Assembly (NCBI RefSeq): GCF_019212185.1
Contig: NZ_CP078138.1
Coordinates: 4,136,501 to 4,200,500, forward strand
Direction of reading: 5' to 3'
From: Pseudomonas fluorescens
GTDB lineage: Bacteria; Pseudomonadota; Gammaproteobacteria; Pseudomonadales; Pseudomonadaceae
DNA length: 64,000 nt
Positions 50,132 through 59,121 of this stretch are shown here, one piece after another; position 1 is the first letter of the stretch; the number at the start of each line of letters is the position of its first letter. The translations under genes and the position numbers were made by a program. The notes beneath the pieces are model-generated. The model searched no databases and was not told the origin of the DNA. It was given only the letters and a program-made list of their open reading frames with translations.

Positions 50132-50989
50132 TCACTCCTCATCCTTCTGCACATTGTTATGCTGCGCCAGGTAGCGATCCAGGGTCGGGTTTGCCTGGGC
50201 GGGGTCGCCAGCCACTTGCCACAGGCGGCGTTCGATGCCCTGGGCCAGCAAGTGGCCGACTGCCGATTCGATGGCCGACAGCACGCAGAGTTGCGCCGGT
50301 TCGTTGGTGGTGTAGCCGACTTCAGCTTCCAGCAACTTCTTGAACTCGATGAACTTGAACACCCCGGCGCTGCGGGCAACCGAGTAGATGGTTTTGCTGG
50401 TCATCACGTTGGCCAGCACCTGGCCGCTGCGCACATCCACCGCCCGCAGGTTGATCGAGACCTGGTCGACCCGGTACTCGCGAGAGATATCAATGCCCAG
50501 GTAGCGCGCCCCTTCCCCGCCACTCTTGACGTTGGTGTCATAGGCGATGATGCCGCCTTCGAGCATCAGGTTCGCCGCTTGCAACGGTGGCAACTCCGAC
50601 TGGATATTCACCGGCGTGTTGGGTTTTTTCTGCGAAGCGCGGATGATTTTGCGCTCGGTCAGCAGATTCTGCAGACCTTCACGCTCCAGTACCACGAACC
50701 AGCCACTGGCCTGCAGCGCGTCCATCAGCATGCTCGCCGCGCCCTGGGTGACGCTGGTGGAAAACGAACTGGCCGGGGTCGGTTTGTACTGCCCGGTCTG
50801 GTCACGGAAGCCATACACCACCGCCATCAGGCGCCCCTTGGGACGCGGCATGTTCAGCAGGTCGTAATAAGTCGAGGCACGCGGTGTCAGCGTCGGCGTC
50901 TCGCCTTCCTGCTCAGCGCCCACCGGTTCGCGCAGTGCGCAGCCCTGCAAGGTGAACAACAGCGTCATCATCAGGATTATTGTTTTCAT
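50132..50989 (-). CDS. csgG: CsgG, curli-type outer membrane export channel
   Basis: 285-residue lipoprotein (lipobox LQGC after the signal) that forms the nonameric outer-membrane pore through which unfolded amyloid subunits pass. The GVFKFIEFKKLLEAEVGYTTNEP segment corresponds to the C-terminal transmembrane hairpin, and the RPKGRLMAVVYGFRDQTGQYK start fits CsgG. It is the last gene of the csgEFG set, 30 bases after csgF, and ends near a REPIN. No csgA or csgB amyloid subunit gene is in the window, so its cargo is unknown. Confidence 0.92.
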   Translation of the reverse strand: MKTIILMMTLLFTLQGCALREPVGAEQEGETPTLTPRASTYYDLLNMPRPKGRLMAVVYGFRDQTGQYKPTPASSFSTSVTQGAASMLMDALQASGWFVVLEREGLQNLLTERKIIRASQKKPNTPVNIQSELPPLQAANLMLEGGIIAYDTNVKSGGEGARYLGIDISREYRVDQVSINLRAVDVRSGQVLANVMTSKTIYSVARSAGVFKFIEFKKLLEAEVGYTTNEPAQLCVLSAIESAVGHLLAQGIERRLWQVAGDPAQANPTLDRYLAQHNNVQKDEE

Positions 50990-51019
50990 GTCCGTCCCTC
51001 CCCATCGTCCCGAATCCCC

Positions 51020-51439
51020 TTAAGGGGCCAGGCCATTCACTTGGATTTCCGAAATTTCGCCGGTCGCGCGGTCGGTCACCTGAATACTCAGAGCCCCCGA
51101 GTCGTCGATGACGTCGACGATGAACGAGTCGGTGGACAGGCTCCCGGTATTGCCCGTGGAGATGTTGTCCAGCAACTGCGACAGCAGCCGCGACTGCAAC
51201 TGGCTGGTGAAGCGATCCAGGGCCGAGGTACCAGTGGTGGTGGCCCGCGACTTGATGTCCGGGTCGTCGTAGTCGTTTTGTGCCTGGGCGTTGTTGAGCA
51301 GCCAGGTACCGTTCAGCGGATTGCCGCCGAACGATGGGTTGATCGGGGTGTAGACCAGTTCCGTGGCCTGGACCAGGCCGCAGCTGCCCAGACCCAGCAA
51401 CAACAGGCCGGCACGCCGTGAGAGGCTTGTGCTGTTCAT
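51020..51439 (-). CDS. csgF: CsgF, curli secretion accessory factor
   Basis: 139 residues with signal peptide. The mature start contains NPSFGGNPLNGTWLLNNAQAQN, nearly the canonical CsgF N-terminus, the part that threads into CsgG and forms its second constriction. It normally sits on the surface and helps the nucleator. Its ATG overlaps the csgE stop by 4 bases. The presence of CsgF argues that export of an amyloid-like or unstructured cargo is intended. Confidence 0.92.
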   Translation of the reverse strand: MNSTSLSRRAGLLLLGLGSCGLVQATELVYTPINPSFGGNPLNGTWLLNNAQAQNDYDDPDIKSRATTTGTSALDRFTSQLQSRLLSQLLDNISTGNTGSLSTDSFIVDVIDDSGALSIQVTDRATGEISEIQVNGLAP

Positions 51440-56629: not shown

Positions 56630-56630
56630 G

Positions 56631-57434
56631 TCAGGCCACCGCCAGGGACATGACATACAGCCCGTCGTGCACGCTCGCGGCCCCCTCTTCGAGGGTGCGC
56701 AACTGCACATCGTCCAACTCGGGCAGCGCGTCCAGGCGCGCCGGGGCATGCAGGTAGACACTCAAAGGCCGTTCGCTGGTGGAGGCCTGAAGCTGCCGTT
56801 CACGACCGATCAGGGCACTCAGCGCTGCGTCACTGTCATTGCTGCCCACCGAGCGCACCGCCACCCAGCGCCCTTCGCGAGCCAGCAGCAGCACGCTGCG
56901 TACCGGCTCGGCGACGACGAACAGGAAGTCGCCGTTGCCCAGGCTCTTGTCGAAGCGGTTGTAGGCCGCCATCAGGTAGGGCTGCACCGAGCTCAGGCGC
57001 AGGTTGCGTGCACTGACCAGGCTGCGCAGGCGTTCCAGCAACTCCTGGGGCAAGGCACTGGCGATGCGGTCATGGCCGGCGGCTTCTGCCGAGAGCACGA
57101 TGTTCCAGGGTTGGTTGGCTGCCCCATACAAGTCCTCGAAGCACAGCTGGGCAAACCCGAGCAGTTCATTCGGGCTGCTGATTTCCTCGCTCCAGGGCAC
57201 CAGGCAGTAGCGACTGAAATGCCCCGACACCAGCACCGTGACTTCCGAGCGCGGGCGAGCATGTTCACCCAGCAGCCGATCGAGGGTTTCCAGGGCGACG
57301 GACCAGGCGGTGTAGCCTTCGTCGATAAAACCGACGCTGCCCAGCCAGTGGATCTGCCCGGCCCGGCGCTGACCCAGCCCGACGCCGCTGGCGCCGAGTA
57401 CGGCGACAAATTGATCACGCGATAAAAGTGACAC
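56631..57434 (-). CDS. PilM/GspL-N-terminal-like cytoplasmic protein
   Basis: 267 residues beginning at a GTG (GTG TCA CTT) that has GGAGGAG seven bases upstream and sits within the end of gspE; the frame up to 57539 is only the shadow of gspE. The protein looks like a divergent actin-like cytoplasmic domain (VSGHFSRYCLVPW, NIVLSAEAAGHDRIASAL). Sequence is well removed from canonical PilM, so the call rests on order and length. It would couple the ATPase to the PilN/O pair. Confidence 0.7.
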   Translation of the reverse strand: MSLLSRDQFVAVLGASGVGLGQRRAGQIHWLGSVGFIDEGYTAWSVALETLDRLLGEHARPRSEVTVLVSGHFSRYCLVPWSEEISSPNELLGFAQLCFEDLYGAANQPWNIVLSAEAAGHDRIASALPQELLERLRSLVSARNLRLSSVQPYLMAAYNRFDKSLGNGDFLFVVAEPVRSVLLLAREGRWVAVRSVGSNDSDAALSALIGRERQLQASTSERPLSVYLHAPARLDALPELDDVQLRTLEEGAASVHDGLYVMSLAVA

Positions 57435-59121
57435 GATTGATCTCCTCCAGCGTGGTCCGACCATCACGCACCAGCTCCAGCGCCGATTCGCGCAGCAGGC
57501 GCAGGCCACGGCTGCACGCCAGGGCCTTGATTTTCGCAATGGGTTGGCGTTCGACGATCATCTGCCGCAGCTCGTCGTCCAGGTGCAGCAATTCGGCAAT
57601 GGCACTGCGACCGCGGTAACCGGTGCCCCGGCAATGGCCGCAGCCACGGCCGTGAACAAAGTGGTAATGGCCGACCTGCAACGGGTCGAGGCCGGAGTCG
57701 TGCAGTTCTTCATCGGTGGGTGTCACGGGGCTGGAGCAGCTGCTGCACACCAGGCGAATCAGGCGCTGGGCCAGCACCGCGTTGAGCGCCGAGACCAGGC
57801 TGTAGGGGTCGATTTCCATCTGGGTAAAGCGGCCGATCACGTCGAACACGTTGTTGGCGTGGATGGTGGTGAACACCAGGTGACCGGTGAGGGCCGATTG
57901 CACGGCGATCTGCGCGGTATCGGGGTCACGGATTTCGCCGACCATGATCTTGTCCGGGTCGTGACGCAGGATCGAGCGCAGGCCGCGGGCGAAGGTCAGG
58001 CCTTTTTTCTCGTTGACCGGGATCTGCAGCACGCCCGGCAGTTGGTACTCGACCGGGTCTTCGATGGTGATGATCTTGTCCACGCCGTGGTTGATCTCGG
58101 TGATCATCGCGTAGAGCGTGGTGGTTTTGCCGCTACCGGTCGGCCCGGTCACCAGCACCATGCCGTAGGGTTCGGCCGCCAGCCGGCGCAGGCTGCGCAG
58201 GGTTTCGTCCTCAAAGCCCAGGGCCTGCAGCTGCACGCCACTGACCTTGTCCGCCAGGTCCTGCTTGTCGAGGACCCGCAGCACCGCGTCTTCACCGAAG
58301 ATGCTCGGCATGATCGAGACCCGGAAGTCGATCTGCCGGCCACTGATGCCGATCTTGAAACGCCCGTCCTGGGGCACGCGTTTCTCGCCGATGTCCAGCT
58401 CGGCCATGACCTTGACCCGCGAGATCACCTGTTCAGCGAACTCGGCACCCTGGATCTTGCTGATGTTGTTGAGCACCCCGTCGATCCGGTACTTGATCAC
58501 CAGGCCACTGCCGGTGGTGCCCAGGTGGATGTCGCTGGCGTGCATTTTCAGCGCGTCGTAGAGGGTCGAGTTGACCAGCTTGACCACTACGCTGGCGTCT
58601 TCACTGATGCTGGTCAGGGACAGGCTTTGCAGGTTGTCGATCTCGACGCTGGCATCGGCCTGGGCGTTCAGCGACTCGACGGCGTGGAAGCTCTCTTCGT
58701 GACGCGCCAGGTAGGCCTTGAGGTCTTCGAAGTGCACCAGGTACAGGGGCGCGCCGTGCAGGCAGTCGTCAATCCAGGCCAGGCGACTGGTGTCGAAGGG
58801 GTCGGCGAACACGCCAATCACCGTCTCGGCGTGGCGCAGCAGGATGAATTCGCGTTTCAGGCATTGGGCCAGGGTGACCCGGTCGAACACCGGGGTGGCC
58901 TCGAACAGTTGGGCGGTATCGAGCACCGGATAATGCAGGGTAGTGCCCAGGCACTGGATGAAGGCCATGGGCTCGAGGCCGCTCTGGCTCTGCAGGGTTT
59001 CGAGCAGCCGCTCGCCGGTGCTGGAGGCCTGATGCCGGGCATGCGCCAGTTGCTCACTGGTGAAACGGGTAGGTAGCGATGCCGCTTGGGCCGGTTCGAC
59101 GGCCAGTGACAAACGTTCCAT
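57415..59121 (-). CDS. gspE: Secretion ATPase GspE
   Basis: 568-residue hexameric ATPase that powers pseudopilus assembly. An N-terminal GspE/MshEN domain is followed by the core: Walker A GPTGSGKTTTLY near residue 326, Asp box, Walker B (MVGEIRDPDTAQIAVQSAL), His box (TTIHANN). A tetracysteine zinc site (CSSC near 460 and CGHC near 492) is complete, as in type II/MSHA ATPases. GGAG precedes the ATG. No GspF/PilC-type partner gene is found in the window, which is odd, as the ATPase normally acts on it. Confidence 0.92.
   Translation of the reverse strand: MERLSLAVEPAQAASLPTRFTSEQLAHARHQASSTGERLLETLQSQSGLEPMAFIQCLGTTLHYPVLDTAQLFEATPVFDRVTLAQCLKREFILLRHAETVIGVFADPFDTSRLAWIDDCLHGAPLYLVHFEDLKAYLARHEESFHAVESLNAQADASVEIDNLQSLSLTSISEDASVVVKLVNSTLYDALKMHASDIHLGTTGSGLVIKYRIDGVLNNISKIQGAEFAEQVISRVKVMAELDIGEKRVPQDGRFKIGISGRQIDFRVSIMPSIFGEDAVLRVLDKQDLADKVSGVQLQALGFEDETLRSLRRLAAEPYGMVLVTGPTGSGKTTTLYAMITEINHGVDKIITIEDPVEYQLPGVLQIPVNEKKGLTFARGLRSILRHDPDKIMVGEIRDPDTAQIAVQSALTGHLVFTTIHANNVFDVIGRFTQMEIDPYSLVSALNAVLAQRLIRLVCSSCSSPVTPTDEELHDSGLDPLQVGHYHFVHGRGCGHCRGTGYRGRSAIAELLHLDDELRQMIVERQPIAKIKALACSRGLRLLRESALELVRDGRTTLEEINRVTFIA

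Follow-up and report, generated by a model that had tools for sequence, protein, structure and literature searches.

Two kinds of export system described in Pseudomonas bear on the locus studied here. According to the available part of PMC4509608, which cites de Vrind et al., Xcm is a second type II secretion system of P. putida GB-1 and KT2440. According to PMC3056050, general secretory pathway genes play an important part in the Mn oxidation of P. putida, whose csgEFG and csgAB form separate clusters. A 2012 survey of curli (PMC3521004) reported csgD close to the csg genes of P. stutzeri but of no other Pseudomonas, and suspected other regulators. We analysed a window of 64,000 nucleotides from P. 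fluorescens (positions 4136501-4200500 of contig NZ_CP078138.1, the single 6.34 Mb contig of the source genome, with the genus Pseudomonas supported by its relatives), in which the curli export genes csgE, csgF and csgG follow a type II-like secretion operon. De Vrind et al. in 2003 (Mol Microbiol 47:993) are said to have described Xcm as a Gsp-related pathway that secretes the Mn-oxidising factor of P. putida GB-1. The xcm pseudopilin genes reportedly adjoin csmE, csmF and csmG, with the xcmT1/xcmS pair separate, and similar clusters were reportedly named for P. fluorescens and Ralstonia. Among the open-licence literature matches listed, no title or abstract start concerned csg beside xcm; the terms curli, csg and xcm are absent from PMC9765421, and xcm, csm and CsgG from PMC3796261. 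The initial annotation of the window knew of no described system of this composition, which did not hold, since the type II-like part matches Xcm of Mn-oxidising Pseudomonas (PMC4509608). Three findings obtained here and described below were not met in print among the open-licence matches listed: mnxG and csgEFG are lost jointly, the island can be contiguous, and its promoter is conserved. The system itself is largely one already known at its core, and the csg adjacency was reportedly noted in the 2003 paper.

We found that the locus is quite likely an Xcm type II-like operon that ends in csgE, csgF and csgG, is placed in a Mn(II)-oxidation island and serves two parallel exports. Twelve open minus-strand genes run leftward from gspE (59121) to csgG (50132), with overlaps of at most 26 bases and gaps of at most 30 bases, where start codons for the junction lengths were picked by eye. 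This confirms the tight run first proposed for these genes. The largest gap, of 30 bases, is the csgF-csgG junction, and pseudopilin 3 is parted from csgE by 12 bases, with GGAGG ahead of csgE. A separation of csgE from the pseudopilins was looked for: no terminator-like site was found on the minus strand from pseudopilin 3 to csgE, and the adjacency is conserved. Two export routes with separate outer-membrane pores share one conserved operon, as had been suggested. The mnxG operon lies directly upstream on the same strand.

Compared with Xcm as reported for P. putida GB-1, the locus is alike in that the pair corresponding to xcmT1/xcmS (GspG/GspF) stands apart and three pseudopilin genes are next to the csmEFG counterparts; in our window and its flank, about 24 kb hold the csg-bearing operon, the mnxG operon and the GspG/GspF pair, and gspE to csgG reads as one unit. 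Curli, or type VIII, systems (csgBA, csgDEFG) likewise have CsgE, CsgF, CsgG and the repeat-bearing CsgA and CsgB, whereas here csgEFG lie about 90 kb from csgBA and inside a type II-like operon. Canonical type II systems (Xcp, Hxc) and MSHA or type IV pilus operons, in their usual layouts, share the ATPase, platform, secretin and pseudopilins, but this locus has a PilN/PilO-like scaffold, a TPR-bearing secretin, and GspF and GspG outside the operon. GspF is not among the twelve operon genes, a point overlooked in the initial annotation. The genes for GspG and GspF lie past mnxG and are divergent from it (L016:11145-12782), and the distance from csgG to gspF is about 24 kb. The possibility that the type II-like system is incomplete was rejected when GspF was found beside mnxG.

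We examined conservation in 75 loci, each retrieved through its PilM-position protein and each from Pseudomonas. The results show that csgE directly follows pseudopilin 3 in 65 of the 75 loci, and four of the other ten end at contig ends. In a genus sample of 199 Pseudomonas genomes, the secretin was found in 61, MnxG in 59 and CsgE in 66; the secretin count is 71 matches minus 10 at 33-36% identity that were taken as another system; CsgE and MnxG are both missing from those 10 genomes. Every MnxG genome (59/59) carries the operon secretin. csgE is present in 59 of the 61 secretin genomes and lies within 5 kb of the secretin gene in 59/59, so that the survey of csgEFG-secretin adjacency proposed earlier came out in its favour. 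mnxG is within 20 kb of the secretin gene in 53 of the 54 genomes with both on one contig. The gene order is kept in 59 genomes, down to about 72% secretin identity. Fisher tests on co-occurrence ignore relatedness. We conclude that the adjacency of csgE and the secretion genes is not due to chance.

The initial annotation had placed CsgA and CsgB outside the window and suggested a genome search for their repeats, and both points were borne out. Curlin genes csgBA with 3 and 7 curlin repeats were found in the same genome (L017:7219-9268), about 90 kb from csgEFG, and the idea that curlins are missing from the genome was rejected. csgBA stand back to back with a gene cluster for a histidine kinase, a multicopper oxidase, an SCO-cytochrome protein, another kinase, and a regulator that combines response-regulator, Sigma54_activat and HTH_8 (Fis-type) domains. 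The layout of two kinases and a sigma-54 regulator resembles MnxS1/S2/R, and the names MnxS and MnxR are used here by analogy with PMC8218464. Together with csgBA, these MnxS/MnxR-like genes lie 80-90 kb from the operon. As a separate observation, a McoA-like oxidase of 1030 amino acids with a C-terminal Big_9/cadherin-like domain (L139:287-3379) is 73% identical to the 950-amino-acid oxidase beside csgBA. In a relative, G084, all parts form one contiguous island of about 41 kb, in the order gspF, gspG, slt, the mnxG operon, the operon of this window, csgA, csgB, kinase, McoA-like oxidase, SCO-cytochrome protein, second kinase and MnxR-like regulator.

Curlins and kinases were then sought in 80 genomes chosen from the 199 (61 with the secretin, 7 with csgE alone and 12 with neither). 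Curlins were found in 59 of the 61 secretin genomes, in 7/7 with csgE alone and in 0/12 with neither, and an MnxS-like kinase was found in 61/61 genomes with the secretin and in 0/19 without it. Of the 48 genomes that carry both on a single contig, 35 have a curlin gene within 10 kb of an MnxS-like kinase gene, where 63 of the 66 curlin genomes entered the distances. CsgE, CsgF and CsgG all score above the curli cut-offs of Pfam, and 59/61 genomes contain curlins, so csgEFG appear to keep their usual cargo.

Where the machine stands alone, the csg genes and mnxG are missing together. Among the loci scored as spanning both ends, mnxG and csgE occur together in 62, both are missing in 4, and 0 have one alone. 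Six loci lack both mnxG and csgEFG (L048, L061, L070, L071, L073 and L085, two of which have a shorter left flank); this refers to the locus and not to the rest of those genomes. In these six, mnxG no longer stands between slt and sco2 and the far end has lost csgEFG, yet gspF, gspG and gspE through pseudopilin 3 are kept, with gspF 87-88% identical to that of this genome. Genome-wide, MnxG, CsgE and curlin are absent from G163, which keeps the secretin (77% identity), and from G021, which has a secretin fragment only and may belong to the clade of the six loci; an MnxS-like kinase is still present in both. With mnxG and csgEFG lost jointly and the machine kept, the presence of curli export next to this machine thus follows that of MnxG rather than that of the machine itself.

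This pattern, in which csgEFG beside the machine are kept only with MnxG and the machine persists without both, also favours a single export path in which CsgE, CsgF and CsgG are needed for, or anchor, MnxG, both routes acting on one product; curli fibres would hold MnxG at the surface, or CsgG would pass part of the oxidase complex. We regard such a path as improbable, since the three proteins pass the Pfam curli cut-offs (with CsgF and CsgG under the NCBIfam equivalog cut-offs), their usual cargo is present in nearly all secretin genomes, and 7 genomes have csgE and curlins without mnxG. The six loci that keep the machine without mnxG, and the kinase persisting in G163 and G021, would likewise suit a machine that mainly exports another cargo, such as McoA or another enzyme, with mnxG just a neighbour. 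The presence of the machine in all MnxG genomes speaks against this, and we consider it very unlikely. GB-1 genetics reportedly also tie the pathway to the Mn-oxidising factor.

Outside the genus, the pairing was not seen. In a phylum sample of 398 genomes, CsgE was found in 28 and the secretin (E<=1e-60) in 8, with both in this genome only (1/398), and a general pairing across bacteria was rejected. Secretin relatives at 36-43% identity occur in 7 of the 398 genomes outside the genus, with CsgE in 0/7. The one operon examined from each of the seven is headed by gspG-gspF and has gspG-gspF-gspE ... gspD and three pseudopilin genes in order (7/7), with PilM-, PilN- and PilO-like matches in 4, 5 and 6 of 7. 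The earlier term MSHA-like is therefore loose, as these relatives are gspG-F-E...D-pseudopilin operons without csg. Because they keep gspG-gspF together and lack csg, we infer that csgEFG were added, and gspG-gspF split from the rest by the mnxG operon, within or near Pseudomonas. A Ralstonia cluster with csg, if it is as reported, would date the joining of csgEFG earlier. An apparently late link, given seven relatives with the machine and no csg, is also what one would expect if csgEFG had joined the operon by chance and were merely co-transcribed, with curli playing no role in Mn oxidation. We think this unlikely, because the order persists across 59 genomes down to about 72% secretin identity, csgBA and the MnxS-like kinase are often neighbours, and csgEFG are missing where mnxG is missing; the csgBA upstream regions, which lack conserved promoter elements in relatives, are on its side.

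We next describe the promoter region. A single-domain response-regulator gene (59193..59729, minus strand; PF00072), present in 74/75 loci, is the first gene past it, ends 71 bases ahead of gspE and probably heads the operon. A candidate sigma-54 type -24/-12 promoter, TGGCATGAAGTGTGC (59797..59811, minus strand), scores 21.2 of 23 and lies 82 bases ahead of the response-regulator start. Upstream of it is a palindrome, CCCCAN4TGGGG (59928..59941), a candidate activator site kept in 72/74 relatives and having 7 sites in the genome. A sigma-54 score of at least 20 was found ahead of the response regulator in 73/74 relatives compared to 60 of 1480 random 300-base pieces, and the palindrome in 72/74 compared to 25/1480, where the 74 promoter loci are related and not independent. 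Three of the 7 sites, from which the palindrome motif was derived, lie ahead of this operon, ahead of mnxG, and in the interval from csgB to the kinase gene. The remaining four are independent: one precedes the second mnxG, one falls within the binding-protein gene that belongs to the mnxG operon, and two are elsewhere in the genome. In G084 the palindrome is ahead of the response regulator and ahead of the kinase; in G110 it is just past surA and between slt and gspG; in L145 it occurs once, near no such gene. Sigma-54 scores of at least 20 were found before csgE in 1/67, before slt in 12/12 and before gspG in 1/12 loci, compared to 190 of 3000 random 400-base pieces. A sigma-70 promoter scan of 49900-60000 gave 0 sites, and with the csgE count a promoter of its own for csgE was rejected. 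In GB-1, sigma-54 and IHF sites are predicted before mnxG and mcoA, and Mn- and stationary-phase-dependent activation has been shown (PMC11930936); the main text of that paper contains no curli, csg or xcm term.

The gene identities first proposed stand for the ATPase, secretin, two pseudopilins and CsgEFG, for which Pfam matches above cut-off (T2SSE, Secretin+STN+TPR, two N_methyl, CsgE, CsgF and CsgG) were obtained, while PilN and PilO are marginal, PilP is weak and PilM is placed by order. All are on the minus strand. The GspE/PilB-type secretion ATPase is at 57415..59121 (PF00437, E 1.7e-123). The TPR-secretin, with a lipoprotein-like N-terminus (LAAC, by eye), is at 53211..55034 (PF00263, PF03958, PF07660 and TPR, with GspD/PilQ structures). 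Pseudopilins 1 (52734..53207) and 2 (52355..52729) match PF07963, the second with T2SSG slightly under cut-off; pseudopilin 3 (51847..52380) has no Pfam match, its homologues are annotated type II secretion system protein or PulG at source, and its position is presumably that of the gene called xcmX. CsgE lies at 51436..51834 (PF10627, E 6.1e-38; NF007701 above cut-off), CsgF at 51020..51439 (PF10614, E 4.2e-32) and CsgG, the curli outer-membrane pore lipoprotein, at 50132..50989 (PF03783, E 2.3e-81; solved CsgG structures, E 3e-83). This csgG encodes the one CsgG-family match in the whole genome. In NCBIfam, CsgE alone passes its cut-off among the operon proteins tried, and CsgF, CsgG, the ATPase (best match type_II_gspE) and the secretin (GspD) fall under equivalog cut-offs.

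For the inner-membrane scaffold, a PilN-like protein (56084..56629) has PF05137 slightly under cut-off, with relative L125 above it at 33 bits, and a PilO/GspM-like protein (55549..56097) has T2SSM_b (PF10741) slightly under cut-off, with relative L129 passing PF04350 and a profile of the PilO-like proteins matching solved PilO at E 0.0018. A PilP/GspC-like periplasmic linker (55031..55552) matches PilP in the PDB weakly (E 0.32-0.43) and agrees with gene order; like pseudopilin 3 and the protein in the PilM/GspL position (56631..57434), it has no Pfam match. A PDB profile search with the latter gave nothing relevant, and the PilM label follows putatively from gene order. Right after csgG, within 50020-50100, is an inverted near-repeat, GTAGGAGCGAGCCTGCTCGCGATG / CATCGCAAGCAGGCTCGCTCCTAC, judged by eye to be REP-like of Pseudomonas.

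The mnxG operon ends, on the minus strand, with genes for a second SCO1/SenC protein (63140..63805, PF02630), an SCO1/SenC protein (62505..63143, PF02630), a periplasmic binding protein with a cytochrome c domain (60933..62495; PF13458, PF00034) and, as the last gene, a SurA-like PpiC isomerase (59950..60933; PF00639, PF13624). Past the window edge, at L016:2303-10254, are a beta-propeller protein and then MnxG, here a 1989-amino-acid multicopper oxidase whose best solved relative is the MnxG structure 9bxa (E 4.1e-71 in 5 stretches). In P. putida GB-1, the same gene kinds make up the mnxG operon (propeller, SCO, ABC, SurA; PMC8218464). Between mnxG and gspG is a lytic transglycosylase gene (SLT; L016:10343-10948) with a sigma-54-like site in 12/12 loci including this genome; the enzyme may open the cell wall for the machine.

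A second mnxG was found in 4 of the 199 sampled Pseudomonas genomes, this genome included. The copy here (L132:8040-13898; G000:C1:2872180-2877888) is 75% identical and has its own CCCCAN4TGGGG and sigma-54-like site upstream. It is followed (L132:13902-19771) by a gene for a PAAR and DUF2515 protein and seven tandem open reading frames of 202-207 amino acids, with no Pfam match in the three tested; the arrangement resembles a type VI effector-type gene trailed by a series of small, putative paralogues. In G087 (L133:7254-16978), a second mnxG and a beta-propeller gene are divergent from a complete csgE-F-A-G operon and a further curlin-like gene; G087 is 1 of the 4 sampled genomes with a second mnxG, and we give this pairing little weight. 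In G151, no mnxG was found within 11 kb ahead of the second csg operon (L143).

Taken together, these results suggest how the two-export system may work. The GspE-GspF/PilMNOP-like/pseudopilin/secretin machine would pass MnxG, already folded and loaded with copper, and perhaps also McoA, through the secretin, and in parallel CsgE, CsgF and CsgG would export the curlins CsgA and CsgB, encoded elsewhere. The curlins may build an amyloid coat at the cell surface, the site of manganese oxide deposition. Two pores would work side by side on two cargoes in one manganese programme. The sigma-54 promoter ahead of the response regulator, probably MnxR-driven, would activate the machine jointly with the curli exporter in stationary-phase cells supplied with manganese. 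The single physiological task proposed in the initial annotation is thereby probable and gains a Mn setting, with its amyloid matrix and secreted enzyme kept as an option.

Several results weigh against this proposal, whose support is sequence-based throughout. The export of MnxG by the machine is proposed by analogy with the reported GB-1 work. Among 13 csgB upstream regions passing filters (part of 34 loci with a csgA/B match, plus loci from other searches), a sigma-54 score of at least 20 occurs in 0/13 and the palindrome in 1/13, which is this genome; a sigma-54 site scoring 22.7 before csgB of this genome lies closer in than the stretch used for that count. csgBA thus have no shared promoter motif in relatives, and joint regulation of the curlins is a candidate only. 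A sigma-54 score of at least 20 also occurs ahead of gspE in 14/74 loci. mnxG is on another contig in 5/59 genomes and 183 kb away in one, and G042 and G060 carry a second, complete csg operon. The six joint-absence loci belong to one clade around P. jessenii, with at least 2 changes on a quick tree that also marks three cut-off loci as lost. Finally, 7 of the 66 csgE genomes have curli without this machine, and hence curli serves other ends too.

We propose, tentatively and at somewhat under even chances, that most Pseudomonas with curli use it as a dedicated component of Mn mineralisation: an MnxR/sigma-54 switch would co-produce the MnxG machine and the curli exporter, curli would scaffold the oxide crust, and curli export would be kept only while MnxG is kept. 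The findings place Pseudomonas curli in a likely physiological context and name a candidate for its regulator, a matter that the 2012 survey (PMC3521004) had not settled. The apparently incomplete type II system is explained by its platform and main pseudopilin lying on the other side of the cargo genes. Should the oxide layer be organised by curli, biological manganese filters would contain a defined amyloid constituent.

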